Of a stretch of 64,000 bases of DNA, positions 1,641 to 59,164 are shown in pieces. The stretch comes from Thysanoteuthis rhombus (Eukaryota; Mollusca; Cephalopoda; Oegopsida; Thysanoteuthidae): positions 57,285,538 through 57,349,537 of the forward strand of contig OY735212.1 of assembly GCA_963457665.1 (NCBI GenBank), in the 5' to 3' direction. The notes under the pieces were generated by a model, which did not search any database, had not been told where the DNA came from, and saw only the letters and a list, made by a program, of their open reading frames with translations. The position numbers and the translations under genes are program-made. The stretch's first letter is position 1. Each line of letters begins with the position of its first letter.

Positions 1641-1719
1641 TTAGTTTGTTGATATTCAAGCTGCTTGCAAACTTAAATAATCTCTGTATCAAATTCTTGA
1701 CAGTCTTTTTACAAACACC
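1641..1719 (-). CDS. ADAM17: ADAM17/TACE-like metalloproteinase, exon C (juxtamembrane helix, CANDIS region)
   Basis: The minus strand reads CTCTTATTTCAG then GGT GTT TGT, 26 codons plus one base, then GTAAGT at 1640-1635. The phase-0 start fits exon B, giving QN|GVCKKTVKN, parallel to the family's NGKC segment. The peptide continues LIQRLFKFASSLNINKL, an amphipathic stretch corresponding to the ADAM17 juxtamembrane segment called CANDIS, which contacts substrates and the membrane. The next exon should hold the transmembrane helix. If the donor is not used, the frame stays open to a stop at 1527-1525 and adds a hydrophobic stretch (KLVIVILLVGCWVF) and a nine-residue tail, so this could instead be a terminal exon. 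I prefer the spliced model because GTAAGT is a strong donor, but only moderately. Confidence 0.82.
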
Positions 1720-1734
1720 CTGAAATAAGAGCAA

Positions 1735-2825
1735 ATGAAAGTAAATTTGTCTCGGTCCATGAATAATTTAAGCACTGCACACATGTCTTTCCCACAGGAA
1801 CATTCTCAGCTGAAAAAGGTGTTCAATCGAGTCCTTATCAATGCTGAAATGGAGTCAAGTTCAACAAAAAGATCCCCAAAAAAGGAACCATCAAGATGAG
1901 GCAGTTTCTGCAGTAAGTTAGAAATGAGCTGCAATGCTTGAATGAAATAAAAACAGACTTTAGATAACTATCTGGAAAAAATATTACACAAACATTTTTT
2001 TCTGCTAATTCTGCATAATTTACACCTGTATAAATATACCTTTCAAAGCAGGTTAGTGAAAAAACAACAAAAAATAGAATTGTCAGAAATATTTTCTGCA
2101 CAACATGCTGAAGTAATACCAGATGTTACATAACCATATAATTACTGGGTTATCAAAAATCTATTTAAAATCTGGGATAAGAAACCAACTTCAGATAAAG
2201 AAGAATACGAGGCTAAAAGTCAGACCATAGATCAGCTAGTTCTTTCCCCTGTGTGAAGATCTAACAATTGCAGTTTTGCCAACTTAATTCTCAATTTACA
2301 TCTAGAATTGCGTCAAAAAACATTTAAAAACATCCAGAAACACGTAGATTCTTAAGACATGTATATATAAAATCTACAAAATATCTTATTATCAAATTGA
2401 ATTTGACTTCAAACTTTACCCTTCATCTTATCAAAATATTTCTCAATTCATTAAAAATGTTATTTTATCACAATGAATTAAAAGGAAATATTTCTTATTT
2501 TATAAAAAGCAATTTCTGAAAAATCTAAAACATCTAGATTGAGATGAATAAACATCTGAATAGGATACACTGAGCAAGGGACATAATTAACATTTTGATA
2601 TGTTAATTATGGCAATCAATGCAAGAGATGCAAACACATCTAAAAATAAAAAATAAAAAATCACAATTTCCCAAATTTAGATTGTGTTTTCTCAAACAAA
2701 TCACACAAATCCGACAAAATTTGGATGATTTATGTTAAAAATATATAAGACATTTTATCAAAGTTCTATCATGCTCAGCAATACCGTTATCATTATCTTC
2801 ATTGATGTTTCCATATCATTGTTAT
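1735..2825. other. Intron, nothing recognised
   Basis: AT-rich unique sequence. The hydrophobic minus-strand frame at 1838-2101 has no family resemblance. Confidence 0.4.
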
Positions 2826-2829
2826 CATC

Positions 2830-3190
2830 AAATCATCGTAGCCCTCAAATGGCCTGCCCGACCAACCAGCTAAGTGGACTAATACCCCCTTTGTTCACTT
2901 GTGTGTCTGTGGGTATGCATCTCCGGATGCCCCTGGTCACATATTTGGGGCTAAAATCCTGAAAATTTGCATGAATACCTCACTAAGCACCATCTAGAAA
3001 ATTATATCCTTTTTTTTTAAGTGCTTTTTGGGGTCCCTATAGACATTTTAGACCAACAATGCCAAAATTGTGTCCTGATATTTTTTAGATAATTTTAGAT
3101 AAAAGATCCATTATATTAGATAATTTTTTAGATAATTAGTTCTGGTACATGAGCTGGCTATAGTGATTCATTTATGCAATGTACAGATAT
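2830..3190 (-). mobile_element. Family-A MITE, full copy
   Basis: In consensus orientation it runs from AAATGAATCACTATAGCC (3167-3150 region) through TACCAGAACTAA, the AGATCTTTTATCTAA units, CCAAAATGACCATAGAG-like and GTAGCCC-like blocks to the opposite end near 2838. The two ends are inverted relative to each other. Confidence 0.75.
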
Positions 3191-3504
3191 CAACATTATC
3201 ATTGCTTGGCAATTTATCCTTTCCAGATTGTTTATCTCTTTTAAAAAATTTCTCAGCAGTTTGCACTAAAGATTGATGCAATACGTTGGTGAATTATGGA
3301 AAAAATTCAAAATGGTAAAAAAAAGTTTGTTGTGCGAATTAAAATCTGGAAAATATTAAAGAAATTAATGCAAATGACGATATTTGAATAGGATTTTGTT
3401 AACGACTCAAATCTATTTATACCAAAGCTTATTTCTAACTTTTGGGAATTAAAAGATGATCCTCTATTATTTCAAGTGAATGCACATATATATTAGAAAT
3501 GGTT

Positions 3505-3845
3505 AACATAGGTTTCTTCAGTTTTTAAGTTTAGTTAGCTGGCTGTGTATTTATCACGTGTATATGCCGCACCGTGAGTGTTGAAAAAATTTACTCCTTC
3601 TTATCTCAAAAAAAAACTTAACTCCCTCGAATAGGTTTTTATTGGAGGTTCAGTTTGCAAATGTAAGTTAATGTTTAATTGGTCCTTAGTCTGCATGCAC
3701 TTGCTTTTCTGAAAACCTTTTTTAATGATTACTATCCAACAGAAAGCAAGTGAAGTTACCTTTTCATTGAAGATCCCCAACATTGCATGCTACCAAAAGA
3801 TTTTGGTCACGGTTTTCATTGAGTGACTAACCAGACCTGTTATTT
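3505..3845 (-). mobile_element. Family-B repeat copy
   Basis: Consensus end CAGGTCTGGTTAGTCACTCA lies at 3839-3820 and the other end, AACATAGGTTTCTTCAG in reverse, at 3505-3522. The internal CCAACAGAAAGCAAGTGAAG block is typical. Confidence 0.75.
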
Positions 3846-3859
3846 ACTAGTGCTAGTTC

Positions 3860-5330
3860 CATGAAAAGTGGATTACATTTTCATGTTCTAAAGAAAACAT
3901 CTTTGCTAGCATCTTCATCTCATAAGCCATTACAATATGTACATCACACCATGGCTTTAATTCATTGACAAAGGTTTTGAATGGGGTTCTATATATGTTG
4001 CAGATCTATGATGCAGAGAAAATGTCTGGCTAATGGACGGAGTCCTGGTTTTGTGACTCTGTGCTATGCCAATCAGGACCTCGAAAAGCCTCGCAAAATT
4101 AACATTTTTTTCTGGTGAGATGCAGCATACATCCAATCAAAATGAGGGGGTTTAACCATTTGGTTGGATAGGCTAATTAAGCCAAAGAGCCGGAAAAAAT
4201 AGCTTAACTAAGTTTTTAAAAGAATGATTCAATTAAATGTACACGTGAGTATTTCGGATGATATTTCAGTACTTTTGCATGTATTTTTTCATATCTGGAA
4301 TATCATTAATGGTATTTTGATTTCTGAATTGGGTTCTCCAAAAACAACATTAAGGAGTAAAGTTTTTTGGACTTTCTATTTAATCACTGTCCCACCACAG
4401 CAATATGTGACACAAGGTCAGGCTTAACGTGGGAAGAACTTTGTACCACAGCAGTGACACCAACCATGTATATATCTTGTATATGAAGGCAGATAGATTG
4501 ATACTTTACATAGGAATGATCCCCAGGTTTCTATGATTGCTTCCTTCCTTTAATACTTGAAACTGGAGTCTTTGGCATTCCAAGTAACAGATGATATCTC
4601 TACAAAAGTAATTTTAAAAAGATGTTGAAATTCAGCTAGCAACTTTAATATCCCTTAGGACATTTTTGATGGAGTTTTCAAGTTAAAAGTGATGTACAGC
4701 AGTGAGGAATCTATCACCTGAAACCTGACACTCTAGTTTTATATCTTAAGTGATAACATGACTTCAGAGAACTCAACCTTTGGTAAATTAACCTTTGATT
4801 ACTTCATGTAGGAAATAATAAATAGTATTTCATTCGGTCACTACTTTGGCCAAAAATTACCAGCATGAATCTTTCAAGCCTTCATTGTTGGATAGAGAAA
4901 GGTGGGTGTTTTTATCATTTATTTAATATCTCCTCAACAATCTGTTTGACTCCTCCCTTATCCTATAAACTGACTTGGTGTTAATTTTTTTTTTTTATGA
5001 GGGAATCTCAGAATACAACAGACAAATGTTATTTACCCCCCATCCTAGCCCTCCGGCATCTTACAGAAACAGAAGCAAGGAACAAATTACTCAAACTACT
5101 TGTCGAGAAAGACAAAACAAACTCCAATTAGTTGAGTTTCTTTATCATCTCTGTCTTAATCTCAAAAGATAATTGTATTTTCTTCTGATGATAAAAGGAT
5201 TTGTAAATGATACAAAAATACCCACCAATGAATCGCTGATATCAACAATCAGCAGTAATTTAAAGAAAACAATATTACCAAATCAATTGAAGCCAGATAA
5301 ATATCTTTATATTTACAATATTTAATTCAA
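3860..5330. other. Intron, nothing recognised
   Basis: No repeat family or exon seen on either strand. Confidence 0.4.
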
Positions 5331-5334
5331 TAGA

Positions 5335-5704
5335 CCCATAGACCCAACAGAACCATAGAGGTATATGAAAGAATTATGCTCAACCTTACATGGAGAGATC
5401 ACAAGACAGCACAATATATTAGGGGAAGAAGAGGAATCCAAAACATCATAGAATTCATCAGAAACCTCAAATGGCAATGGGCTGGTCATGTTGCAAGAAT
5501 GGCAGACAATTGATAGAAATCAAAACTCACAACGTGGACCCCCAGAGATCACATGCAAAACTAAGACCAGCAGAATATAAGATGGATAGATGAACTAGAC
5601 AAGTTCAGAAAGTATTGGCTCTGTGATGCCCATGATAGAGAGGCGTTGTTGATGGATAATAAAAGACTGCTGCTACAGCTGCTGCTGCTGATGATGATGA
5701 TGAA
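5335..5704 (+). pseudogene. RTE retrotransposon 3' fragment with (CTG/ATG)n tail
   Basis: The plus strand holds the RTE C-terminal signature: ERIMLNLTWRDHKTAQYI-like codons, then LKWQWAGHVARMAD, then codons like those for DELDKFRKYWLCDAHDRE. It is interrupted by a stop in place of the RW after MADN and by small indels, and ends in CTG/ATG trinucleotide repeats. It is 5' truncated. Confidence 0.8.
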
Positions 5705-5998
5705 TTTGGCAATTCAGAAAAACAAAAAAATCATAAATTTTAATTTCCGATTACGCATTTCGCATTGGTAGCGTCATCAGATCGTATTTAGAGAATTATG
5801 AAAAGTACATGAAAAATTTTAAATTTAGTTGCTTTCTCCAAATTACACATTGTCAGAAAAATCTACTGACTCATAATGAAAATTTACAATGTGCCAACTT
5901 AGAAGAATACCAACACAATATTTGGGTATTGTTAGGCAGCAGTCGTCATGAAGGAGATAGGAAAGGCCTTTATCCATCAGTGAGCTTATAATGGCTGA

Positions 5999-6000
<2 letters not shown>

Positions 6001-6070
<70 letters not shown>
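6001..6070. repeat. (AT)n microsatellite
   Basis: 35 uninterrupted AT units. Confidence 0.97.
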
Positions 6071-6073
<3 letters not shown>

Positions 6074-6083
6074 TATAAATAGC

Positions 6084-6455
6084 AGGCAGATTGTGTTGCT
6101 AAAAGAGCTTTATCTTTTGGAAAATATCTATACACATTGAAATCAAAGATCAGTTCACTAGTATGAAAACAAAAAGAGATTACTGAAAGATTAAAAAGAT
6201 GTTCCTTGTCTGTTATATTCAATGAAAAATGTATTATGATAGATATATATGTGTGTGTGTGTGTGTTTAATTCCTCATACATGCACTCACAAGCACACAT
6301 TCTAGAGAGAAAGAGGATATTCATAGACATATCTATATCTTTACACATATGTATATGTATATGTATATCAATCAGATTGTGTTGCCAAAAGTGCTTTATC
6401 TTTCAGAAAATATCTATGTTCATTGAAGCCAAAGATCTGTTCACTTGTACGAAAA
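6084..6455 (+). repeat. Pair of ~85-bp direct repeats
   Basis: CAGATTGTGTTGCTAAAAGA...GTTCACTAGTATGAAAAC (6088-6170) recurs as CAGATTGTGTTGCCAAAAGT...GTTCACTTGTACGAAAAC (6373-6456). Each is preceded by TA-rich simple sequence. Confidence 0.7.
6248..6267. repeat. (GT)n microsatellite
   Basis: A short GT run following ATATAT. Confidence 0.85.
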
Positions 6456-6481
6456 CAATGTGATAGAGAGATTTGCCAGGA

Positions 6482-6672
6482 GGATCTTTTATCTAAAAGT
6501 ATATTAATAAATACCAGCACAAGATTTGGGAATTGGCCAAAATGACCATAGACACTAAAAAAGGCACTCTGAAAAAAAACAAAAACACCATTTTTAGATG
6601 GTGCCTAATGGTGAATTCATGCAAATTTCCAAGGTTGTAGCCCCAAAAATGTAACCAGGAAATGGTCAAAAT
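6482..6672 (+). mobile_element. Family-A MITE, internal fragment
   Basis: Contains GATCTTTTATCTAAAA, ATACCAGCACAAGATTTGGG, AAAATGACCATAGACAC and TTCCAAGGTTGTAGCCCC. Both terminal repeats are missing. Confidence 0.7.
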
Positions 6673-6675
6673 AAG

Positions 6676-7610
6676 TTTGAATTCAATTAGAAGTAAAGGC
6701 ATATTTGTTCCCTATATTCCTTGTAGAACTGAAAATACATATGATGTTTTGTATTGTGTGCTTGCAAAAACAATTTAGTGTCAATATAAAAGCAATATAT
6801 AGAAAAAGGCTTCTGGCTACAATGTAGAGAAGGTGGTTCAGATTGCAAATTGTAAAATTTCACTCTCTCACTCATTTGATGTTACAAACAGCAAACAAAT
6901 AAAAAGAAACAAGAGAATTTATGAAAGAAAAAGAAAAATTAGGATTGGACACTATTATCAGTGGATGATAGTGTCCCATCCTAATTTTATTTTTTCCAAA
7001 TTCTGTTTTTCCATTGATTCCCTAATTTTTATAATCGGGACCACCTCTCCTAAATTGTACCAAAAAGACTTTAACTGTCCATGGCTTCTTAAAGACACTA
7101 AAATGTTTCTACGTTTTTGAGCATTTGTAGCACGCAATTCACCCAAGATACAAAGCAACATATGCACCTGAAATATTCTTACGTTTTTGTACATCCGTAG
7201 CACACAGTACACACAAGATACAGAGCACCATACGCCACTGCTCATAATTGGATTTGTTTCATTTCTGTACTCATCACTTTCTTCTTCTGTCTGAGATAAA
7301 CGTTATTTGAAGTCCAAAGAACAAAGTCATTTTCAATTTAAAATATTCAAAGTCTTTTTTCCTAATCTATTTTCATTTCTAGAAACTTAAAGTAATAATG
7401 CACTTCGCCTACTATCATGATTCTCTCCTGAGACTTCTCTACTTTCATTGTGCACTGCATAATGTCTCCAAATTGATTACAGTTTAGTTTAATCTGTTGC
7501 TGTTGGCTTGGAATAGCTTTTCAGAAAACCTTCTTGCATTTGCGAGCTGAGTTTATCTTTCATTATTATATGGAGAAGACAAAAGCAAACTCAATGAAAA
7601 ATGGAAATAA
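6676..7610. other. Intron, nothing recognised
   Basis: Contains only a short near-palindrome near 6945-6985 (GGACACTATTATC...GATAGTGTCC). Confidence 0.4.
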
Positions 7611-7611
7611 G

Positions 7612-7957
7612 ATATCCGTACCTCGCATAAATGAATCATCATAACCTGTGGATGTACCAGAACTCATTATCTGAAATTATCTAAAAAAATAGATCTGATA
7701 TCTAAAATTATCTAAAAGAAATACTAGCACAAGATTTGAACATTGATGGTCCAAAATGACCATAGAGCACTTTTTGGACCCCCCCCCCCAAGAAACAGTT
7801 TTCAGAAGGTACCTAGTGGTGTACTCATGCAAATTCTCTAGATGTGACCAGCAGCACCCAGAGACACGCATAGATAGACACAGACATACAAAGAGAGAAA
7901 ATTTGGTAGCTCACTTGGCTGGTTGGTTGGGCCATTTGTGGGGCTACAGTGATTCAA
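7612..7957 (+). mobile_element. Family-A MITE, full copy
   Basis: Begins at CGCATAAATGAATCATCATA, with the GTACCAGAACT, ATCTAAAATTATCTAAAAGA, CCAAAATGACCATAGAGC and AGCTCACTTGGCTGGTTGG blocks, and ends GGGGCTACAGTGATTCAA. The ends are a short inverted repeat (AATGAATCA...TGATTCA). Confidence 0.82.
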
Positions 7958-7962
7958 TATCT

Positions 7963-8154
7963 CTATATTTGTATGTGTTTGATGTACATAACATTTGTTT
8001 TGCTGATGTTCATATGGAGTCCAACTTTCTTGCTTGCTTCCTTTGATTTATCTAACATTATTTGGAGATCATGAAGGTTCTTAGCAAAGAGGAAGATGTC
8101 GTCAGTAAATCTGAGGTTAGAATTGTGTTTAATGCCCAGTTTAAGATAAATCAA
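7963..8154 (-). pseudogene. RTE reverse transcriptase fragment with catalytic FTDD
   Basis: The frame reads LRFTDDIFLFAKNLHDLQ then KKVGLHMNISKTNVMY. FTDD is the YxDD-box of motif C with both aspartates kept, followed by the family's LHDLQ and KVGLHMN blocks. The fragment lacks the C-terminal part and the tail. It begins a few bases after the end of a family-A MITE (7612-7957). Confidence 0.8.
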
Positions 8155-8332
8155 TACCAGCTGAAATCTTTTAAGGTCTTAAAATAAATAGCAAATGAAA
8201 AAACAAATTTTGATCTATTAAATGTTGTTCACAGTAAATTTGGGGGCAAATCAAGCCCCCCCCCCCTTTAGCAAAGAGTTCCCATACACACATGAATGAT
8301 ATGGGGAAATGATAGTTGTATGCTCAAAATAA

Positions 8333-8738
8333 TAGTTTTCCATGAGTGTCTAGGAGTTGCATTATACACAAGTTTGAAAAAGAAGTGATCAGTGAATAAG
8401 TTACTTCTCTCACCTTTTGTTGGGCAGTGATCATTTAAAAGAGTGAATTTCAGAAGAATAGGCAGGTACGAAATAGTTATCAACTTGGCATTAACGTAAT
8501 TGTAAATTGAAACCCTCACTTATAAACCTTTGGAGGGTGTTTCCAAAAAACAAAAAAAAACTATTTTGTAGAAATGATTTGGAGTAAACATTTGATTTTT
8601 CAATTCTGTAGCACCATTTGTGTGGCCTATATGAGAAATACAAACATACATCACCAGCCAGCCAAACTGACTTGAAAACTGAAGAAACCTATGTTGACAG
8701 TTTTGGTTTATGGTTTCTAATTAGTTGACTAAACACTA
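8333..8738 (+). mobile_element. Family-B repeat copy
   Basis: Contains CTTTTGTTGGGCAGTGATCA, the GGAGTAAACATTTGATTTT block, CACCAGCCAGCC and ACCTATGTTGACAGTTTTGG, and ends in GTTTCTAATTAGTTGACTAA, which resembles the inverted start of the family. Confidence 0.78.
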
Positions 8739-8884
8739 TGATGAAAATTGGGGACTCCCTATGTCAAGGCTGGGCTTTAAAAAATCAAGTATACGGTAAG
8801 GATGGGTTTCAATAACTAAGTATACAGTAATGACTCCATTAGTAAATACTTCACAAACAAAAGAATTGAGAAGTAGATATACAC

Positions 8885-10080
8885 CATATGTCCACACTCA
8901 TTTCCATCATTGGTCAGATGTTGGTCATAAATGTCTATAAATATTAGTGGACCGTATTCCTGTATGCCCACTACCATTTCCATCATTGGTCGGACGTTGG
9001 TCATAAATGTCCATAAATATCAGTGGACCATACTCCTGTATGTCCACACCCATTTCCATCATTGGTTAGTTGTTGGTCATAAATGTCCATAGATATTAGT
9101 GGACCATACTCCTGTATGTCCATACCCATTTCCATCATTGGTTAGTTGTTGGTCATAAATGTCCATAGATATTAGTGGACCATACTCCTGTATGTCCATA
9201 CCCATTTCCATCATTGGTTAGTTGTTGGTCATAAATGTCCATAGATATTAGTGGACCATACTCCTGTATGTCCATACCCATTTCCATCATTGGTTAGTTG
9301 TTGGTCATAAATGTCCATAGATATTAGTGGACCATACTCCTGTATGTCCATACCCATTTCCATCATTGGTTAGTTGTTGATCATAAATGTCCATAGATAT
9401 TAGTGGACCATACTCCTGTATGTCCACACCCATTTCCATCATTGGTTAGTTGTTGGTCATAAATGTCCATAGATATTAGTGGACCATACTCCTGTATGTC
9501 CATACCCATTTCCATCATTGGTTAGTTGTTGGTCATAAATGTCCATAGATATTAGTGGACCATACTCCTGTATGTCCATACCCATTTCCATCATTGGTTA
9601 GTTGTTGGTCATAAATGTCCATAGATATTAGTGGACCATACTCCTGTATGTCCATACCCATTTCCATCATTGGTTAGTTGTTGGTCATAAATGTCCATAG
9701 ATATTAGTGGACCATACTCCTGTATGTCCATACCCATTTCCATCATTGGTTAGTTGTTGGTCATAAATGTCCATAGATATTAGTGGACCATACTCCTGTA
9801 TGTCCATACCCATTTCCATCATTGGTTAGTTGTTGGTCATAAATGTCCATAGATATTAGTGGACCATACTCCTGTATGTCCATACCCATTTCCATCATTG
9901 GTTAGTTGTTGGTCATAAATGTCCATAGATATCAGTGGACCATACTCCTGTACACCCACACCCTTTTCCATCATTGGTTAGAAGTTGGTCATTAATGTCC
10001 ATAAATATTAGTGGACCGTACCCCAGTATGACCACACCCATTTTATCATTGGTTAGATGTTGTCCATAAATGTTTATGGA
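8885..10080. repeat. 76-bp minisatellite, about 15.7 copies
   Basis: The unit contains CATTGGTTAGTTGTTGGTC, ATAAATGTCCATAGATATTA and GTGGACCATACTCCTGTATG. Copies between 9061 and 9900 are nearly identical, while the first two and last two units differ at several positions. The unit has two short inverted repeats (GTCCA/TGGAC and CATAC/GTATG). No spacer lies between units. There is no coding potential, since 76 is not a multiple of three. Confidence 0.93.
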
Positions 10081-10289
10081 CTGTAATCTTGTTTTTCTTG
10101 TTATCAGTCAAGAAGGCACTTTTCGTAATTAGCAAAATTATTGATGTCGTTGGCTATTTCTTCTGAGTTTCTGCAAAAATAGTGTCCAGATATTTCCACT
10201 CTTTTGATAAGATCACCTCATTCCGACTGGAAATGGCCCAAGGTGTTGATCATTTCAACGTGGCATTGATATCTCTCATTTTTGAGAAA

Positions 10290-10540
10290 GAGCTCTGTTT
10301 TTCTGTCTCTCACCCTTTCTTTCTTTCTCTAATTATCTCTCTTTTTATATCTTTTTTTCTTTACTTTCTCTCCTTCTCTCCATCTTCTTTCTTTTTGAAA
10401 AGCACGCTCTTTCTCTTGCCTTCTTTTCGAAAAGAGTTCTCTATTTCTGTCTCACTCTTTTTATCTTTTTCCTTTCTCTCTCTCTTCTTTCCACTTTCTG
10501 GTTCAAAAATTCTCTCTCTTCACTTTCTCTCATGATTGTT
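10290..10540 (+). repeat. Polypyrimidine tract (C/T on plus strand)
   Basis: Nearly all C and T with TTTCTTTCTCTC-type runs. Two rough repeats of about 120 bp start near GAGAAAGAGCTC (10284) and CGAAAAGAGTTC (10428). The frame at 10182-10535 is Ser/Phe/Leu low complexity and not a gene. Confidence 0.75.
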
Positions 10541-11055
10541 TGCGTGCATATATGTGAATCTGCACAAGCACAATGCAGAGTCACTTCTTGCGTATAACAT
10601 CCAAAATAAATAAAATAAAACTGAAATATATTCTCGTATATTCTAGCATTCAACACGCAGATGCACCCATAGAAGCCAGAACTAAATATAGAAATTAAAA
10701 AGCAGGGACCTTGCTCTTCAAGAAAGCAAATCATATCTACCGAAATTATTTTTTCTTTCATTCGATGCAAGAAAATTATTTCGATTCCATTTCCCTCGAC
10801 ATATTTCAAGAGTTAATGGAATTTTGCCAGAAGATTCATGTGTCATCTTTAATGCATTGATTTTTCATAAGCATTCCTAAAAATTAAAAGATTTTTGTAT
10901 CCATAAATGCATAAACCCTTCATGTTCCAGTCAGAAGTAGATTTTTTGTCCTTTTAATAACCAAATGTTATAAGATCAGAAAGATTATAATGAACTGTTC
11001 TTGGCATGGACTGGACACCAATTGTTCTTCATAAATGTATTTGCATCAGATTATC
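10541..11055. other. Intron, nothing recognised
   Basis: Between the pyrimidine tract and an RTE fragment. Confidence 0.4.
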
Positions 11056-11059
11056 TTCC

Positions 11060-11571
11060 TACGACAACGAGTCTCCACAACATCCTCGAAAGAAGTAGAA
11101 ATCAAGTAAAGAATCAATCTAGGGTGGTAGGCCTTCGGTAGAGCAAACTCAACCTTCAAGAACAAGAAAATCCCACAAGTCATAGAAAGAAGAGTATACC
11201 ACCAATGCATCCCCCCTCGATAGTCACCTATGGAGCTGAAACATGGGAGCCAAGACTGACTGAGAATCATGCAACATGCAACATCATATGGAGAGATCAC
11301 GAGACAGCACAGTATATTAGGAGAAAAACAGGAGTCCAACACATCATAGAAACCATTTGGAAAGTCAAATGGCAACGGACTGGCCATATTGCAAGAATGT
11401 TTGACAACCAATGGACATCATGACTCACAACATAGATCCCCAGAGATCAAATGCAGAACTGAGGCTGACAGAATGTGAGATAGCAAAACAAACTGGATAG
11501 GTTTAGAAAATATTTCCTCTGCAATGCCCACAATAGATGTGGTGAATCCTGGGGGGGGGTGTCTATGTCCA

Positions 11572-11613
<42 letters not shown>
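11060..11613 (+). pseudogene. RTE retrotransposon 3' fragment with (GAT)n tail
   Basis: The segment begins in the EIKQRI-like block. A frame-disrupted IVTYGAETW block at 11220 is followed by IWRDHETAQYIRRKTG, VKWQRTGHIARM and a decayed 3' end. It ends in about 14 GAT repeats (11572-11613). There are several frameshifts. Confidence 0.8.
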
Positions 11614-11734
11614 CAGTAACCAAAAGAGTTTTGGTTACTTGAAATGTATCATGCACAATGACTCACAAAAACTCTGTCAGTCAACTGGCAACCATTTACA
11701 CATCTTGGTCTTTAGCCAAAGAAAAGTACCAGAA

Positions 11735-12860: not shown

Positions 12861-12864
12861 ATTT

Positions 12865-13530: not shown

Positions 13531-13534
13531 CAGT

Positions 13535-13840: not shown

Positions 13841-13889
13841 AATCATATAGTAAACCATCATTATTTTAAGAAAAACTGATTTTTTTTAA

Positions 13890-47306: not shown

Positions 47307-47309
47307 AGA

Positions 47310-47495: not shown

Positions 47496-47589
47496 ATTAT
47501 CAAATTCCAGTCAACCAAATTCATTGTTGATTCCACCACTCCTGATGAAATAATGTCTTATGAAACAATTTGTCCCAGCTCCAAATGAA

Positions 47590-48295: not shown

Positions 48296-48299
48296 AGCT

Positions 48300-48660: not shown

Positions 48661-48924
48661 GGTTCTCTATCAAGTTAATCATCAAATCTATGGAATTTCA
48701 GTTATCTATTCCTATCAAAAAAAATATCAGAACTCCTAAAACCCAAATAACAACCTTGTGAATAATTTGGAGCTTTCACTAAGTGAAATTTTGTTATAAA
48801 AATCCTTCACTGTCAGAGATATCACAATGCATAAATTAACAAATGATTTCAAGTAAATACTTACCTATCTTACTTATTGCATTCATGATTTCTATAGTTT
48901 TTGATAATTCTTCTCTCTTCAAAA

Positions 48925-49385
48925 ATAATTTGAGACATTTTATCTATAACTTTCAACATTTCTTTCGAAAATTTTCCTCTACAAAAATGTGTTTGTACTG
49001 AAGCTAATGAAATAATCTTTTTTTTTTCAATTATATCCAGAGAAGAGCAACAAAACTTGTTCCAGAACTAGAAAAAACTCCCTTACAAAAAAGACTTTAA
49101 AAATTAAAACTAACAAAATTAGAAGAAAGGGAAACAAGAGGAAACATAATACAAACATTCAAAATTATAAAAGGCATCAACAACATCCCAGCTAAAAAAT
49201 TCCTTATAATGAATGAAAGATAAAAATGTATGAAGAATATAATTGAAAATATTCAAAAAGGGATTCTTCCCAGAAAGCTTTGTCAATAATCAGAAGAAAT
49301 TAATAGATCACAATCCAGAAATAATAGAAGCTAAAACGGTGAACAGCTCCAAAAATGAATATGATAATTGCACAAAATTTTCACT
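48925..49385 (+). pseudogene. CR1/Jockey-like LINE C-terminal fragment, copy 1 of a pair
   Basis: After a non-coding lead-in of about 95 bp the frame reads IQRRATKLVPELEKTPLQKR, KLKLTKLEERETRGNIIQTF and KIIKGINNIPAKKFL. The second copy, 1.2 kb downstream in the same orientation, shares both the lead-in and this region. Confidence 0.72.
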
Positions 49386-49389
49386 TGAT

Positions 49390-49830
49390 ATACATCTTAT
49401 CTCATCTTATCTTATCCTAATTATAATCAAAAGCATTCTGATATGCTACCAGAAATTTCAAATTTGTTTATCCAAGAGTAGTTTGGAAAATTGAACTCAT
49501 TATTTTTGTAGCTTATCTTGTTATCAAAGAATAGAGATTGACCAAGACATCACAAAGGATATGATCAGTTGTGTGAATAATTCTCAGATTAATGATGTCT
49601 CTTCTCAAAATTAGAGACAATATCTTAAAATTTGTTCGATGAAGGTTCATTTCATATTATATTCTGGGTGTTCAAGGAATGTAAAGATATTTTATCAGTT
49701 CATGACACTAACATCTCCTCTATTTGAGTCAAAACAGGACCCATCTATTGGTGATAGTCTTTTATTCCAAGATTTGAGATGGTAGTGAAAATAAGATACA
49801 TGAATTCTTGAGACAGAACTATAAGCATAA

Positions 49831-49877
<47 letters not shown>

Positions 49878-50120
49878 TGCACTGAGATGTATATATGATG
49901 ATCATCATCATTTGACTATGTAAATGAAGATTTAGGAGGGGATTCCATGTCTGTTGCAAGTTGGCTGTTAGCCAGTGGGGTGCACACAAGACAGGCAATT
50001 TCTTCCCTGGTGGCTGCAAGAGAGGGTCTGGTAAATGGATTGCGTTCATAATAGATTGTTTTTTTTGGTGGGGGGATAGAGAAAAACTGACCTAAAAATG
50101 AGACAAGAAAGAGAGTCCAA
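49390..50120. other. Intron between the two paired LINE fragments
   Basis: Holds one (AT)n tract and a higher-GC stretch (49960-50045) that I cannot assign. Confidence 0.4.
49839..49878. repeat. (AT)n microsatellite
   Basis: About 16 AT units with a CATATATG end. Confidence 0.93.
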
Positions 50121-50124
50121 CACA

Positions 50125-50505
50125 AAAATAACTTGAGGCATTTGATCTATAACTTTCAACCTTTTTTTCAAAATTTTCCTCTACAAAAAAGAGTTTGCAC
50201 AGAAGCTAATGAAATAATCTTTTTTTTTCAATTATATCCAGAGAAGAGCAACATAACTTGTTTCAGAACTAAAAAAAGAACTCCCCTGCAAGGAAAGACT
50301 TAAAAATTAAAACTAACAACATTAGAAGAAAGGAGAACGAGAGGAGATATAATATAAACATTTAAAATAATAAAAATCATCAATATCATCCCAGCTGAAA
50401 AATTCTTTATAACAAATGAAAGAAAAAAAAGTATGAAGGACATGGCTGGAAAAATTTTTAAAAAGGGTTCTTCTCAGGAAGTGTTGTCAACGATTGCTAA
50501 GATTT
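50125..50505 (+). pseudogene. CR1/Jockey-like LINE C-terminal fragment, copy 2 of a pair
   Basis: A direct repeat of 48925-49290 starting at the same point and differing by scattered substitutions and small indels. Codons for RRAT, QERLKN-like and ERREDII-like blocks are recognisable but broken. Confidence 0.7.
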
Positions 50506-50833
50506 ATTTTCCTTTTTATTGTGTAACTATTGAAGGCAGTCTGACTTGATGACTTCTGAGTTGATAGAGAAAAAAATTTAGAGAAAAAAGTCTCGCAAAA
50601 ACCTTCCTAAAACCTTACAATCAGTGCATTGTGAAATCAACGCACAATCTACTGAATTACAATGCTCAATGAGTGTGTTTGTAGATAAATATTACAACTT
50701 TGTTGCTACTGATCAGTTTTACACCTTTACAATTGTCAGATCATTTCCATCATTTCATGAGTCGGACAAAAGATTTGTACCAAAGTATATGCTCCAACAC
50801 ACACATGAATACATGCAATTATGTACAAAAGCA

Positions 50834-50849
50834 TCTCTCTCTCTCTTGT

Positions 50850-50894
<45 letters not shown>

Positions 50895-50901
50895 GTATAT
50901 A
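50834..50901. repeat. Compound (CT)n(AT)n microsatellite
   Basis: CT units broken once by TTGT, then ATATAT. Confidence 0.93.
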
Positions 50902-50904
50902 GTC

Positions 50905-51289
50905 TAGAAAGCTTTAGAGCTTTATACTCTACACACATTAAAAACTTTCTGAAAAGTTTTTATGCATCACTTCAGTCACTAATTTCCCAATAACTATTAA
51001 TGAAGTTTACATGAATTTCTCCAGTGTTTTTTTGTTTTCATGTTTTACATATACTTTGTTATTATGGTATTACATGTAAATTCTCTCTTGTTGGGATCAT
51101 CAGCTGTTTACCATGTAACCATTTCAGGGATTTTAAAAACAAAACAGCCTTTTTAACATGGCACCCCAGCAATATCGATGAAACACCTCAGTTATGATTT
51201 TAAGACATAGCTTATGTTATACTTGTAGTTTTTTTGATAGGATATTACAATAATCTATTGCATATGGGAGTTATTTTATATATATATAT

Positions 51290-51372
<83 letters not shown>

Positions 51373-51390
51373 TACATACATAAATATATA

Positions 51391-51466
<76 letters not shown>

Positions 51467-51888
51467 CACATTTAAGGTCCAACTCAAAAGTTTTGGAAAG
51501 ACATTTTCATTTTATATGCCTTGGCAGCAAATTGATGGTTGCAGTGTATGGGAAATCAAAAGAGTGAATGTTAATAGATAGTATATCTTTTAGAGATTAT
51601 CCTCTCAAATTCATCAATGAGATTCAAAGAGGATCAGATATAATGTAGGTGGGGATAATGCCACTAAAGTAGACAAGTCTGAAACCTATCCATTTCTCTG
51701 GAATGGATTAAGTAATTGGTAAGGAAGTGGTGGGGGGTAAGCATGGAGGATATGGGCCAAGAGCATGCATCAAATTTGCGGAGGTTGTGTATCATAGCAT
51801 TTCCAGCTCAAAAAGAACGTTAAACAATTCTTTGAGAATCTAAGATGGGCCATTCCGCAACAATATGTTTCATGCAATTTCACAGGCC

Positions 51889-51890
<2 letters not shown>
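50905..51890. other. Intron, nothing recognised apart from the long (AT)n tract
   Basis: Unassigned sequence on both sides of 51276-51471. Confidence 0.4.
51276..51471. repeat. Long compound (AT)n/(CA)n microsatellite
   Basis: About 195 bp of AT/GT/CA alternation flanked on both sides by CACACACA. Tyr/Ile frames here are artefacts. Confidence 0.96.
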
Positions 51891-51891
<1 letters not shown>

Positions 51892-51928
<37 letters not shown>

Positions 51929-52375
51929 GTCTTTTAACGTCCGTCGTAGGACATAGACCTTCCCCGGGACGTGCCACACTCCTCTATCATGGGTGTCGCA
52001 GAGCCAGTACCTTCTAGCTAGTCTCTCCATCTAATATTCTGCCAGCCGCGGTTGCGCATGTGATCACGGGGAATCCATGTTGTGAGTCACGATGTCCACC
52101 GGTTGTCCACCATTCTTGCAACATGGCCAGCCCACTACCATTTGAGATTTTTTATGATGTCCCTGACTCTTGTCTTTTCTTGGATGTATTGTGCTGTCAT
52201 GTGGTCTCTCCATGTGAGGCCCTGCATAATTCTTTCATGTGCACGTTGCATGGTTCTCAATTTGCAAAGTTGTCTCTTGGTTATGTTCCATGTTTCAGCT
52301 CCATAAGAGACTATTGGGAGAATGCATTGGTTATACACCCTCCTTTTTAGGATTATTGGGATTTTCTTTACTATT
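51892..52375 (-). pseudogene. RTE retrotransposon 3' fragment, relatively young, with (CAT)n tail
   Basis: An 86-codon open frame holds KRRVYNQCILPIVSYGAETW, KLRTMQRAHERIMQGLTWRD and YIQEKTRVRDIIKNLKW. It shifts frame once into the GHVARMVDNRW-like block. The tail is about 12 CAT units (51892-51927). CpGs such as ccgcgg and ccgtcg survive, suggesting a later insertion than its neighbours. Confidence 0.82.
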
Positions 52376-52467
52376 TTCTTAATACTTATGTACATATCTA
52401 ATCAATATCATTAAAATTATAGATATACATAATCAGAAAATAAGTATATATTTATATTATATTCATA

Positions 52468-52468
<1 letters not shown>

Positions 52469-52514
<46 letters not shown>
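52469..52514. repeat. (AT)n microsatellite
   Basis: About 19 units plus a GTATATAATG end. Confidence 0.93.
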
Positions 52515-52679
52515 ATGTATATTATTAGTTAGAAAAACAAACACACATCCTCATGTTCATACCTACAGAAATACCGATAAAAAGATACGTACATAATTTT
52601 TACTAATTAAAAAGAAAATATGCTTATCCATTGTCACACACACAGAGAATGATCAGAATGATTTTAATCGCATTATATC

Positions 52680-52850
52680 ATACAGATGCTCTTATTGGGA
52701 ATGATCATCTGTTTTTACATGGTGAATGTACAATTTGGCCTAGACAATGTAAATAGAATCCTTCAATTGTATTTTGTATCTACGATGTCTAGGCCAAATA
52801 GTACATTCACCGTGTAATAATGGGTGATCATTTCAAAAAAGAATGTCTGT
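52680..52850. mobile_element. Foldback made of two SINE tails
   Basis: GGTGAATGTACAATTTGGCC + TAGACAATGTAAATAGAAT at 52720-52758, and its inverse, ATGTCTAGGCCAAATAGTAC + ATTCACCG, at 52783-52813. Arms are about 60 bp around a 20-bp centre. The same tail occurs in the SINE at 24345-24595. Confidence 0.65.
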
Positions 52851-52864
52851 ATAATATAACTCAA

Positions 52865-54075
52865 TTTATAATCATATATATATATCTATATATATATAAA
52901 CAATAAAAATGAATCAAGCATTTCCCTTAGTATGAAAGATCTTAACACCAAAGAGGATGGAAGAGAATTTGGGAATGTTGACCCACAGTGGAAAGTAGTC
53001 TGAGATAAATGGAACAACATTGATGCAGCACACTGGAAACAAAAATTAGACAACTTGCCCAAATGGCTCAGTTTTCTGGAGAAGAAATAAGGAAAAGCTA
53101 TCCTATACTAAAACAAACACTGTATGCACTGTTGTGTGCCATTGTTGAATATTTTACTCATAGTTGTTGAAGTAAAAGAGTAATTGCAAAAAAGATTCGA
53201 TAAGAGAAGTTTTGTCCCACTTTGCCAACGATCGTTAATATTTTTACGGTAAGAAATAATCATACTGACACAAAATTGTACTTTTAATTACTTATTCATA
53301 CGTATCTCATCTCATACACATGTAATAAGATATTAATTCACATCTCATCGTACACACTCAAACACACATACACAAATGTCCGCACACACAAGTTTAACCA
53401 TATATTTATAGTCATGCAAATTGATATTCTGATATTCATCTATCTACTTATATTTACCAAACTTTGATAAATTAAACCTTTATCTGCAGCGAATCCTCTC
53501 AATTACAATTCATTATGAGTAACTGACCAAGACTTTACCATCATTTCTGACTACCCACCAAAAATTGTTATCCAGCATGTAGAATACATCTCCCACAAAA
53601 CTTGTTCACTTTTACAATGTTTCTGGTTATAGAAGGGCTTTCTTACAGGCATTACCTTTTTCTCTCAATGTATATTTTTCTTACTTCCAAACATCTGGTC
53701 ATTTATTGTAAATATACATGTGTGTATGTGCTTTGAATGTTTGTGTATTCAATCCCTGAATACAGTAATACCTTAAATAGTTGATTAGTTCAAAACTACT
53801 GTTTGAGGTCTTGTAATAATTTAATGTTTTTCTTTCAACTCTTACTTAGTTGCATTTGTTTGTCCACCAATATCTTAACGGTACTACATCAAAACCTGGA
53901 CTATTTAAGGTATCGCTGTATTAACTTTTAAATATGTTTTGTACATTAACCAAACAAGGGAATCTTCAGAGTCTCCAAAAAAGTTTTGCATGCATGCAGA
54001 GTCAGGCATTTACACATGCTAATACTTATCTTTACATATGATCTCCACATTTTTTCAATGTATAGATACACAACT
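52865..54075. other. Intron, nothing recognised
   Basis: 52930-53110 (GGAATGTTGACCCACAGTGG) may be an old transposon remnant; unsupported. Confidence 0.35.
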
Positions 54076-54370
<295 letters not shown>

Positions 54371-54429
54371 TAAGATTCAGTCACATTAAATACATGTTTG
54401 TGCATATACACATCTAGTTGTACTGCTAT

Positions 54430-54535
54430 ATATATATTTGGACGAAATACGTTTCCTAATATAATGTCTCTAAAATTATCACATTCTGTCGGACATGAAC
54501 TGTCCAATTTAATGATATAGATACAGTCAGCAATA
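54430..54535 (+). mobile_element. 3' part of the second SINE family
   Basis: GACGAAATACGTTTCCTAAT, ATTCTGTCGGACATGAACTG and AATGATATAGATAC repeat the tail of the copy at 54660-54890. Confidence 0.6.
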
Positions 54536-54541
54536 TGGGAA

Positions 54542-54571
54542 CACACACACATATATGTGTGTGTGTGTGTA
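54542..54571. repeat. (CA)n(TA)n(TG)n palindromic microsatellite
   Basis: CACACACACATATATGTGTG and further TG; a self-complementary alternating purine-pyrimidine tract. Confidence 0.9.
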
Positions 54572-54659
54572 AATATTCATGGCTCCAACCAAAGAGTGGT
54601 AGTTTAAGTACGCTATTTCAATGGGTTGTTTAAGTGCACTATTTCAAACACATGCTCAT

Positions 54660-54890
54660 GAAGAGTGCTGCAAGTTCAGTTGGTAGAGCAGAGTTAAAGC
54701 TGCTTCCTGGTGGATGCTGGTTCAAGTCCTGCTTGGTGCTCACTTTTTTTATTCATTTCCAAGGTTGGCTGTTCGATTTGCTATTTGGTTAATTCCAGTA
54801 CCAGATGAAATATGTTTTCCGATATAATGTCTTTAAATTATCACTTTCTGTCGGATGTACACTGTCCAATCGAATGATATACATATGTAT
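54660..54890 (+). mobile_element. tRNA-derived SINE, second family
   Basis: A tRNA-like head (AAGTTCAGTTGGTAGAGCAG, box A type; GCTGGTTCAAGTCCTGC, box B) followed by a body ending in TTTCCGATATAATGTC, TTTCTGTCGGATGTACACTG and AATGATATACATATG. Confidence 0.65.
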
Positions 54891-54894
54891 GAAT

Positions 54895-56090
54895 ACACGT
54901 GTGTGCATGTGTGTGTATGTGTGTGTTATATAACTATCTCTAGAGACATAGGTGTTCTTATACTAAATCACACATAAACATGTTTCTATATTTCTATAAA
55001 TAAACCTTGGAACATTGTCAATTTTCCTACACGCAAACGTACATGATTCTCTATATACACATACACACATAATGATATACTTTGACAAAAACAGCACCAA
55101 CGCATATAGTCTATTTGTTAAGATACATACATTAATATGCTTGCATCCATACATACCCAGACAGATATGTAATGAAATATTCTATGGTCTATCAGATTAC
55201 CCTAAGAAAAAGATCACTGCACATCCAAAATAGCAGAAACAAAGAGCATACCAAATTGTCTACATTCAATTTTCATATCTACAAATTATTCATGTTAGTT
55301 TGAAGAGATTTGTAATGTGAACGACCGTATAAATATTATATGTACGTATATTTAATAAGAATGTAATAAATAACCAGTTACTATAATTAAGTTTGCACAT
55401 AAAAACTTGGCTTTATTTCAATAGAAAACTCTCGCTCTTGCCTTTGACGTATGGGGAATAACCAGTCTTTTATTCTACATAATCATTATTCTTCATTTCA
55501 CTACTGGCGCCAACCGTAAGGTTATGTCTAAAAATAGTGCCAAAAATTTCCTCACCTTCAAATTGATAGCCTTGCTCATATGTTCAGGTATTTGGTTAAG
55601 TAAAGAAGAAAGAATGTTTTCTTGCATATATACATATATATTTTTAGTATGTGGGCTAGGCTGACGTAACTTTTCAGTCAGATATAAAATTTTTGTAGAT
55701 AAAAGAGTTTTCTCAGCGATTTGGGGGGAACTCCCAATGTATATAAATAGAAGTGATACATAAACATCTGAGGGAAAGCCTGAAAATAACAACGAGGAAA
55801 ACTTAAGTAGTATCATTATTCTCTGCCCCCAGAAAACAATCTATTAATACGACACAGGTAATCATTTGCTTTGGTGTGAGTGCATCTTATGGCTAGCCAA
55901 ATGGCTGGACCCTGGGGACTAGAAATTTTTTGAAGGCATGTGAAATTTCAAGACAGATGTCGGATAAGTGGCACTATCTTCATAGGTCACTAAAGGTTGG
56001 CACAGGTCAACTTAGGGTCAAAATTGCTATTTCTGACCAAACTGCAAAAAAGAAGCATTTTACATGATACTGCATAAACTGGAAATCCCC
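54895..56090. other. Intron, nothing recognised
   Basis: The minus-strand frame at 55493-55816 has no family resemblance. Confidence 0.4.
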
Positions 56091-56094
56091 CAAA

Positions 56095-56357
56095 ACAGCA
56101 CAGGAACGACAGAGATCAGTGATATCATAGAAACCATTAGAAAACTCAAATGGCAATGGGCTGGCCAAATTACGAGAATGTCAGACAACTGCTGGACATC
56201 CCAACCCATAATGCAGATCCCCTTAGGATCATATGCAAAAACGTAGCCAGCAAAATATGAGATGGCATGACGACCTAAATAAATTCAGAAATTATTGGCT
56301 CTGCCCATGCTAGAGGATCTGGCGAATCTTGAGAGAAGTTTATGTCCAATGATGATA
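56095..56357 (+). pseudogene. RTE retrotransposon 3'-terminal fragment
   Basis: Carries ISDIIETIRKLKWQWAGQIT, RMSDNCWTSQP and a decayed end. The usual ATG tail has become the start of a GATATC-rich tandem array (56357-56620). Confidence 0.78.
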
Positions 56358-56620
56358 TCACTCGATACCTAGAGAAAACTTGATGATATCACTGGATATA
56401 TCATGATATCTAGAGAAAACTTGATATCACTTGATATATCACTATAGAAAACTCAATGATATCACTAGGTATCTGGAGAAAAAGATGATATCAATAGATA
56501 TCAAGAAAAAAATTGATTATATCACAATTTATATCACTAGATATTCAGAAAAAAATTTGATATCACCAGATACCTAGAGAAAACTTGATGATATCACCAG
56601 ATATCTAGAGAAAACTTTCA
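56357..56620. repeat. GATATC-rich irregular tandem array
   Basis: About eight units of the form GATATCACTAGATATCTAGA + GAAAACTTGAT, with unit lengths varying by deletion. It starts at the tail of an RTE fragment. A lone unit recurs at 57487-57510. Confidence 0.75.
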
Positions 56621-56653
56621 GGTAAATATTTTTTTCTAAAAGATATCAGTGAA

Positions 56654-56725
56654 GGTGTTGTTGGCCAAGTGGTTAGCAGCTTGGAAAATTGAATCAATGA
56701 GTGAATTTCAAACTCCAACTGGGAT
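56654..56725 (+). repeat. tRNA-like (possible SINE head)
   Basis: TTGGCCAAGTGGTTAGCAGC (box A type) and ATTTCAAACTCC (box B type) at tRNA-like spacing. No convincing clover-leaf. Confidence 0.35.
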
Positions 56726-57094
56726 GATCCATTTTCACTTCACACTTAAGCTCTTGGAAAAGGCAATAATAGGAATAAATGATGCAACTTAGGATAAAAA
56801 AATATTCCAAATATAACAAATTAACATACAGTAATTTTGTGAACGAGTAATTAAGGGGATAGGTACAGTATTCTGAATAAAAGGATATTTTTGTAGAAAT
56901 TTTTAAAAAGTTGTCAGAATAGAATTTCATTTCATGTCTTATACTTGTAAATTCGCATTTTTGTTTAAGAAAATTTTATGGGGGCAAAGGAACTACTCTT
57001 CTTAATTCCATGGAAGCAACAATTCTGATGGAATCAATATTCCAGGACCAATTGAAGATGGTCGGCATCTTTTCAAAGCAATCGATACAAAGTG

Positions 57095-57158
57095 TGATAA
57101 ACTTGCAATAGGAGTCATTTTTGGTAAAAACCCAGGCAAGGCTGGGTACTTCTGCTAG
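57095..57158 (+). mobile_element. Helitron-like 3' terminus 3
   Basis: CCCAGGCAAGGCTGGGTA forms a CCCAG/CTGGG stem and is followed by CTTCTGCTAG and T. This is the best-paired of the three hairpins. The element's 5' boundary is not recognised. Confidence 0.55.
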
Positions 57159-57235
57159 TAGTAAACATAGGCTGAAACATTTAACAGATAATGGTATTCT
57201 ACTTCTCCAATCATAACATCATGTATAAGATCTAT

Positions 57236-57375
57236 ACCGTATCACCGTAACCCCAACTAACCAGCCAAGTGGGCAACAGATTTTCATCTCTTCCCTTGTC
57301 TGTGTGTGTGTCTCTGCTTAATGTTGACCATAGGTTCACAATCACTAACAAGTGAATACCTCATTTCCCAAGATG
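57236..57375 (-). mobile_element. Family-A MITE, distal fragment
   Basis: TATCACCGTAACCCC, CCAACTAACCAGCCAAGTGG, then a TGTGTGTGTCTC tract and TGACCATAGG, matching the distal half in reverse. Confidence 0.6.
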
Positions 57376-57621
57376 AAGTGGCCTCAAAACTGTTAAAACA
57401 TCAGATTCTGACTGGTGTTATCTATTTTATTTTCTCACAAATGCCTTTAAGAAAGACATGACTCTATTTCTCCCTGTGCTCTATCCTATCACTAGATACC
57501 TAGAGAAAAACATCCCATTACTGGCATGTCATGAAGTTGATAAATAAGAGGGAGTGTGGCTGAACAGTTCAACAACCCAGTTTATCATAACTATCTTAAT
57601 GGCCGAGACATTAGCAACAAA

Positions 57622-58075
57622 AAAAGCTGTCAAAAACTGTCAATCAATACTTTCTGCATAGATTTCTTCAGTTTTTTAGTTGGTCTGGCTTGGATGGCTA
57701 TGTATATATCATATGTACAGGAGGAAACCAATCGAGTTAGAGGGCTGAAGATTTTAATATTTTCTCCCTATTATGTCTATAGAAAACTTTTGTTTTTTTT
57801 TCATAGATTTACCTCTTAAATAGGTTTTTAGTAGAGGGTTCAATTTGAAATGTGACTTCAAGCTAAACTGGTCCCTTAGTATGTGTCTGGTAGCTTGCAT
57901 GCTTTTTTTTTTTGAAAATTCAGATTTTTTAGAGATCATTGCCCAACAAAAAGCAAGTAAAGTAACTTATTCATTGATTACACCATTTTCCGATTCTTTA
58001 ATTGACCATCCACAACTCGGCATGCTGCCAAAAGACATTGGTCACATCACATCGAGCAACTAATCAGAGCTGTTG
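57622..58075 (-). mobile_element. Family-B repeat, near-complete copy
   Basis: Contains AGTTGGTCTGGCTTGGATGG, ATAGGTTTTTAGTAGAGGG, GCCCAACAAAAAGCAAGTAA and GAGCAACTAATCAGAGCTG. Confidence 0.74.
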
Positions 58076-58079
58076 TAAA

Positions 58080-58600
58080 TAAGATTTAGGTACTTATTAG
58101 GTAACATGGTTCAACAAAACCCAATTTATGGTGTACTCATTGATGAACAAACTAACTAGCAATGGGTTGCCAGATAAACTCACAATAAATCTCTCGTGCA
58201 TAATCTGCAATATTAATTTCATGATGAATAAAGATTATGTTTAAACAGCTATATTGGTGTACCTAACTACTGCTTGACAAGAACCAACAGCTTTTGTAAA
58301 CACTGTGAGATTAAAACTTCATAAACATTATCAATCACAACATGAATAATCCTTTTATTGATTACTGCCCAAAAACTCGTTGAAAGTGTCCATGTTCAGG
58401 ATTAGAGAGCTACGCTATGAGTGATTTAAAGAGCCATCAGGTGTTGCCTGGCTCTGTGAAGTGGTTTGGGACATTGTCAGATGGTAATTAGGATGTTCAT
58501 AAGGAAATAATATGCAATGATAATAATGTAGTTGGTTCATTATTTCAAATAAATGTCCGCATCATTTTAAGAGGGGGCTTGTTTGCAGTCTTTTAAATAA
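58080..58600. other. Intron, nothing recognised
   Basis: Unassigned sequence. Confidence 0.4.
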
Positions 58601-58604
58601 CATA

Positions 58605-58985
58605 TATAGATATATCTGTACCTTGTTCATAAATGAATCAGTGTAGCCCGCGTATGTACTACGACTAAATATCTGAAAACCTATCCAATACAAAAGATCT
58701 TTGATCTGAAATTATCTAGAAAAAAGTTACCAACATAAGAATCGGGCGTTGTTGGTCAAAAATGACCATGAAGAAAAACAAATTTGAAAAAACAAAACGA
58801 GAAAAGGTTTTCAGATGTTGCTTACGTTGTACTCGTGCAAATTTTTCAAAGTCGTAGCCCTCAAAATATGACCAGGATCTCACAGGTACACACACATACA
58901 CAAATAGAGGGAAGAATATGTGGCCCCATTGGATGGGTGGTCGGGAAGGTTATTGCCATTTGCGGAGACTATGGTTATTTGATGG
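58605..58985 (+). mobile_element. Family-A MITE, full-length degraded copy
   Basis: Starts TCATAAATGAATCAGTGTAG, then the AAAGATCTTTGATCTGAA units, GTTGTTGGTCAAAAATGACC and CGTAGCCCTCAAAATATGAC, and ends ACTATGGTTATTTGATGG. It lies about 100 bp downstream of exon A in the direction of transcription. Confidence 0.72.
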
Positions 58986-59090
58986 TGATACTAGTTGAGA
59001 AAGTTGATTACTCGGTAGGACATTACAACATGCTGACTCAAATGGAGACGGAAAAATCAAGAGAGATGAATTCAAAATGTCTGCACTCAC

Positions 59091-59164
59091 CATCATTACA
59101 AATACAAGAGATCAGTCCTCTAGCTTCGCAAAAAGATACACACACTCCATCATAACAAGTGCCA
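59091..59164 (-). CDS. ADAM17: ADAM17/TACE-like metalloproteinase, internal exon A (membrane-proximal domain, first part)
   Basis: The minus strand reads ...TATTTCAG, a 74-nt exon, then GTGAGTG, so both splice sites are strong. The exon starts with the third base of a codon (phase 2), carries 24 codons and ends with one base (phase 1). It encodes GTCYDGVCVSFC followed by EARGLISCICND, with five cysteines in the order and spacing of the region between the disintegrin domain and the membrane-proximal domain of ADAM17. ADAM17 is a type I membrane zinc protease that sheds cytokine and growth-factor ectodomains; this part is extracellular and non-catalytic. The last base G joins TT of exon B to make a valine codon, which keeps the frame. 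It sits between a family-A MITE (58605-58985) and a family-B repeat (from 59190). Upstream exons with the protease and disintegrin domains are not visible up to 64000. Family recognition is by motif, not by search. Confidence 0.88.

Follow-up and report, generated by a model that had tools for sequence, protein, structure and literature searches.

The 64-kb stretch of the Thysanoteuthis rhombus genome analyzed here (the window; positions 57285538-57349537 of contig OY735212.1, designated C15 below) very probably carries three coding exons of an ADAM17-type (TACE) gene, one of two such genes found in this squid. Apart from its unusual length and its large introns, this is an ordinary ADAM17 family member. 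The original prediction, made from the letters of the window, had proposed an ADAM17/TACE-like gene of three tiny minus-strand exons (74, 116, and 79 nt) separated by introns of ~26 and ~31 kb. Their positions and splice sites were borne out: a T-rich stretch and AG lie ahead of each exon, GT comes directly after it, and the introns measure 26,354 and 30,901 nt. The phases also agree with those proposed (G/TT at the first junction, codon-aligned at the second), and the three exons joined give an open frame of 89 codons, in which the cysteine spacing C-x2-CC-x7-C-x14-C-x4-C is present. The claim that the gene spans the window holds insofar as the three exons lie inside it, but the gene is not confined to the window and continues beyond both ends.

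Joined in silico and used in a protein search, the three exons yield a peptide that falls within ADAM17. The 89 residues match the Pfam family ADAM17_MPD (PF16698) with an E-value of 9.5e-12 (45.5 bits, cut-off 26.2); the sole other family at E ≤ 10, DUF5679 (E 0.11), stayed under its cut-off. In a phmmer search of the PDB the best E-value was 6e-14, and all six distinct sequences at E ≤ 10 were ADAM17. All 12 cysteines are common to the joined peptide and the human ADAM17 segment, with which the first exon (59091..59164) aligns from residue 571. In a search of the whole assembly (2.73 Gb, 514 contigs) the core exon (32621..32736) passed the ADAM17_MPD cut-off by itself (27.4 vs 26.2 bits); the family also appeared, below cut-off, in one of 14 control genomes searched in this way. 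An ADAM10-like rather than ADAM17-like gene is extremely unlikely: the short cysteine-rich layout is common to the ADAM10 and ADAM17 families, but ADAM10 chains are absent from the PDB matches at E ≤ 10, the Pfam match is that of ADAM17, and a separate locus at C22:12886870-12891972 is one that we take to be ADAM10-like.

The original prediction had also argued that chance agreement was unlikely, and this was upheld. When the human ADAM17 segment was compared with the window by tblastn, the three exons were the top three matches, collinear, at 32.0, 29.6, and 26.2 bits, and all exceeded the maximum over 100 dinucleotide-preserving shuffles (25.4 bits; 20.0 in the reversed window). The exons are short, and the third alone surpasses the shuffle maximum only narrowly. 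That short frames in 64 kb aligned by chance is nevertheless already refuted, with a probability of virtually nil, given the E-values of the joined peptide (~1e-11 and 6e-14), the matching exons in a second gene, and the extension of the gene to both sides.

The second ADAM17-type gene lies 9 Mb off on the same contig (C15:48408880-48374391, ~34.5 kb found). It comprises prodomain, metalloprotease, disintegrin, cysteine-rich, membrane-proximal, and transmembrane exons in the same order as the window copy, and it has equal-length counterparts of the 74-nt and 79-nt window exons as well as one short exon between the cysteine-rich and 74-nt exons. For the 10 exons drawn for both copies, a candidate exon of 6 nt included, the lengths are equal modulo 3 in every case, with the exon ends picked by the analyst from consensus splice sites. 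Introns of the second copy span 0.7-4.4 kb, whereas those between located exons of the window copy span 5-76 kb, and matching intervals are ~3-fold to 36-fold larger in the latter. With the two copies, compact and expanded introns can be compared directly for a single gene structure within one genome.

To locate the remainder of the window copy, the genome was queried with the metalloprotease part of the second copy, and small stretches were then read. Further ADAM17-type parts were found in order outside the window (Table 1). The located exons are collinear on the minus strand from C15:57637942 to ~57211493, a distance of ~426 kb, with gaps, from 5' to 3', of 66.1, 29.9, 5.0, 39.2, 40.5, 40.1, 71.7, 26.4, 30.9, and ~75.6 kb; three of these gaps should contain additional short exons known from the second copy. 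Exons this small and this widely spaced make an ADAM17-type gene invisible to searches for long frames. In the annotation of another squid, the length of mRNA genes averages 42.9 kb with 9.0 exons, according to the part of the source available (PMC12475895), and introns averaging 5.4 kb are given for Octopus minor in the portion available (PMC6279123). All located exons of the window copy are open and flanked by AG acceptors and GT donors, with the exception of the cysteine-rich exon, which is followed by ATATCCTT. We infer splicing in the arrangement shown.

Several observations weigh against this reconstruction. Strong stand-alone E-values were obtained for only two of the outer exons (1.1e-11 and 5.7e-9), the others being individually weak (0.30, 0.51, 0.67, 0.0087 for the transmembrane exon, and 0.055 for the cysteine-rich exon). 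Exons MP2 and MP7 were not found in the window copy, as the searches for them matched only the second copy, and a combined query with prodomain pieces likewise matched only the prodomain of the second copy and none for the window copy. The short exon expected ahead of position 59164 was not found either, with no candidates by pattern in 71.6 kb upstream; this negative is weak, because the pattern assumed a phase 1 AG acceptor, unlike the phase 2 ATATCCTT end of the preceding exon. Finally, the human cationic lipid-binding residues R625/K626/G627/K628 (RK_K; described in the available part of PMC4866515) correspond to SNGR in the window copy and to PDGR in its counterpart, and this contact therefore appears not to be conserved in either; the motif is functional in the human protein and not a family-defining feature, and the helix after the last cysteine remains basic (KKTVKNLIQRLFKF). 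The weak outer exons were accepted because of their order, their single strand, their confinement to one 430 kb stretch of a 2.7 Gb genome, and their fitting splice sites.

The very large introns and the four expected exon sets that were not located (prodomain, MP2, MP7, and the short exon ahead of the window) might point to a duplicate of the compact ADAM17 gene that is decaying and no longer functional. We consider this highly unlikely. The located exons are all open, and the one departure from AG/GT sites, ATATCCTT at the cysteine-rich exon, is common to both copies; the zinc histidines, the Met-turn, and all 12 membrane-proximal cysteines are retained; and the exons not located may have been missed, for shortness or divergence, by a six-frame search in which only the best candidates are scored. 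The window copy is also about as near to human ADAM17 as the second copy (152/327 vs 156/324 identical residues, an alignment in which the cysteine-rich exon of the second copy is misaligned; 140/299 vs 148/307 without the cysteine-rich exon), and the window segment is closer to human than its counterpart in the second copy (38/86 vs 28/85). Between the copies, 168 of 363 residues are identical (46%, with one of the aligned residues located beyond a donor), and the differences by codon position number 161/120/228, a bias that would be expected under purifying selection. These figures fit a duplication of long standing, after which both copies stayed under constraint.

The cysteine-rich exon ends directly before ATATCCTT at C15:57416353 in the window copy and at the same exon end, 48382999, in the second. 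This sequence matches the one at which minor (U12, AT-AC) introns have their 5' splice site. No in-frame acceptor was resolved for this intron in the second copy, and in the window copy the next exon was not found.

The encoded protein would be a membrane-anchored sheddase. Its predicted layout runs from a furin-like RNRR site through a zinc metalloprotease, disintegrin-like and cysteine-rich parts, and the membrane-proximal domain with its juxtamembrane helix to a transmembrane helix. The furin-like site was read by eye, followed by CSLLLVADFRF, in exon C15:57637942-57637812, and the three zinc histidines, the Gly, the Asp, and the Met-turn YLMYP are all present in the window copy; the Glu of HExxHxxGxxHD would be supplied by a candidate exon of 6 nt (see below). 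Human ADAM17 (TACE; PDB 8snl, 8snm, 2m2f) shares with it the membrane-proximal domain, the 12 cysteines, the juxtamembrane helix, the domain order, the zinc-site histidines with the Met-turn, the furin-like site, and the transmembrane helix (NIVGSVIVFSLFFWIP, strongly ADAM17-like). The window segment is 44% identical (38/86) to the human protein, the disintegrin-like exon has 15 of 39 residues identical to human 476-514, and the transmembrane helix has 15 of 26 identical to human 666-691; the juxtamembrane helix is encoded by the third window exon. As stated in the available part of PMC4866515, phosphatidylserine is bound in the human enzyme by the membrane-proximal domain together with the juxtamembrane helix, which also position the protease over its substrates; by homology the part encoded in the window would place the squid protease over substrates at the membrane. 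Enzyme activity and substrates are presumed from the sequence. The window-copy gene differs from human ADAM17 in its extent of ~426 kb and apparently also in a catalytic motif interrupted by a candidate 6-nt exon. This split motif may be the part of note, the remainder being a known family.

In both copies, an exon ending in ...(I/V)TAH-G precedes an exon starting with -GHNWGSEHD, both sides of the junction being in phase 1. Their direct join would give HGHNWGSEHD, six bases short: two residues of HExxH, the Glu and the one after it, would be lost, and the frame kept. A 6-nt exon of the pattern AR-NNN-G between AG and GT/GC was therefore sought. The 3.2 kb intron of the second copy contains exactly one such site, aaaaag/AAATTG/gtaagt, resulting in HEIGH; a 6-nt exon with a leucine codon between AG and GT was not found in this intron, and allowing any middle codon gave one. 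The first 10 kb of the ~44 kb intron of the window copy contain two pattern sites, of which aaatggcag/AGTTCG/gtgagt results in HEFGH. Both candidates occupy the same place in their genes, have consensus donors, and restore HE(I/F)GHNWGSEHD, and skipping them would preserve the frame. The catalytic motif would thus extend over three exons, ...TAH-G, then AGTTCG (window copy) or AAATTG (second copy), then GHNWGSEHD..., to give HEFGHNWGSEHD and HEIGHNWGSEHD.

A strict pattern, AG-AR-(hydrophobic codon)-G-GTRAGT, occurs, in 273 kb read on both strands, at exactly the two candidate sites and nowhere else; in shuffled introns it arose in 0/1500 cases for the second copy and 1/600 for the 10 kb of the window copy. 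There are points on the other side. The strict GTRAGT donor was chosen after both sites were known, and a looser pattern (hydrophobic codon, GTR donor) appeared in 40/1500 and 77/600 shuffles. AG-ARNNNG-GT occurs once more in the same 10 kb of the window-copy intron, this time with a lysine codon; the search there covered the first 10 kb of about 44 kb, and the candidate of the second copy has a weak acceptor (aaaaag). Allowing for the strict pattern being post hoc and the looser one commoner in shuffles, we regard the 6-nt exon as probably real. That both copies instead join MP4 directly to MP6, producing pseudoproteases with HGHNWGSEHD and no catalytic Glu, is very improbable: this join is in frame in both copies, but the 6-nt candidate in each intron, which has a consensus donor, would add back precisely the Glu plus a hydrophobic residue, and the Met-turn and the three zinc histidines are retained in both.

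If the 6-nt exon is real, an annotation omitting it would make both enzymes appear inactive; if it is regulated, a central shedding protease would have a splice switch that works in one step. The wider proposal, that in squid-type cephalopods the catalytic Glu of both ADAM17 genes sits on a skippable 6-nt exon and that splicing switches between an active and a full-length inactive form, is speculative and rather doubtful; such an inactive form could still bind partners and substrates. Microexons are defined as exons of 30 nt or less in a Drosophila survey, the available text of which includes a tested in-frame 6-nt example (UGP), comparable in length and frame to the candidates here (PMC8042270). 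The present candidates would carry a catalytic residue of a protease, unlike the microexons in the available text of that survey. In its main text, without the tables, 'tace' has no occurrences and 'adam' has one, an author's name (PMC8042270). Among the literature matches listed, no title dealt with this gene or with microexons at the active site of a metalloprotease, which does not show absence from print.

Table 1. Features of the window-copy ADAM17-type gene and the split catalytic site of both copies (C15, contig coordinates; all others, window positions).
Feature	Position	Length	Strand	Remarks
RNRR and metalloprotease start	C15:57637942-57637812		-	E 0.67
Metalloprotease exon CLSHLFTYQSF...	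C15:57571726-57571588		-	E 5.7e-9
Metalloprotease exon TGWSS...ITAH	C15:57541699-57541589		-	E 0.30
Candidate 6-nt exon AGTTCG	C15:57536556-57536551	6 nt	-	Pattern search
Metalloprotease exon GHNWGSEHDP...YLMYPYSVNGYE	C15:57497334-57497213		-	E 1.1e-11
Disintegrin-like exon	C15:57456685-57456550		-	E 0.51
Cysteine-rich exon	C15:57416460-57416353		-	E 0.055 (within 173 kb searched)
End of upstream intron(s)	59165..64000		-	Closest located upstream coding exon C15:57416460-57416353, ~71.7 kb off
Exon, membrane-proximal domain start (GTCYDGVCVSFCEARGLISCICND)	59091..59164	74 nt	-	Phase 2 start, phase 1 end
Intron	32737..59090	26,354 nt	-	Counterpart in second copy 736 nt
Exon, membrane-proximal domain core (VAESCLKCC...GYCQN)	32621..32736	116 nt	-	Phase 0 end
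Intron	1720..32620	30,901 nt	-	Counterpart in second copy 1,237 nt
Exon, last cysteine and juxtamembrane (CANDIS-like) helix (GVCKKTVKNLIQRLFKFASSLNINKL)	1641..1719	79 nt	-	Phase 1 end
Start of downstream intron	1..1640		-	Transmembrane exon ~75.6 kb off
Transmembrane exon (FFRTNIVGSVIVFSLFFWIP)	~C15:57211581-57211493		-	E 0.0087; ends read by hand
Window-copy split site (exon end / 6-nt / next exon)	C15:57541589 / 57536556-57536551 / 57497334		-	AGTTCG
Second-copy split site (exon end / 6-nt / next exon)	C15:48391526 / 48389774-48389769 / 48388315			AAATTG

Additional weak genome matches with internal stops, on C7, C3, C40, and C4, were discarded, as was one on C32 (E 3.56). Rfam at the gathering threshold and ARAGORN gave nothing in the window. 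Related frames occur on both strands of the window (11142-11423, 27218-27867, 33288-33818, 46863-47165, and 52135-52401), with peptides like RRVYNQCILPIVTYGAETW and HKTAQYIREKTGVRDIIE; presumably they are remnants of one retrotransposon family. Five of these frames (two at 27218-27867, and those at 33288, 46863, and 52135) had no Pfam match above cut-off, PF17882 (E 0.0097) lying below it. Reflectins are cephalopod proteins, and a reflectin-like query had 36 matches in the genome, 33 of them on C45 and the top six 81-83% identical; a reflectin gene cluster, in keeping with a cephalopod genome, is located at C45:35726309-37577385. Two minisatellites lie inside the 31 kb intron, at 8887-10073 (76-nt unit, 15.6 copies) and 11765-12648 (32-nt unit, 27.8 copies).

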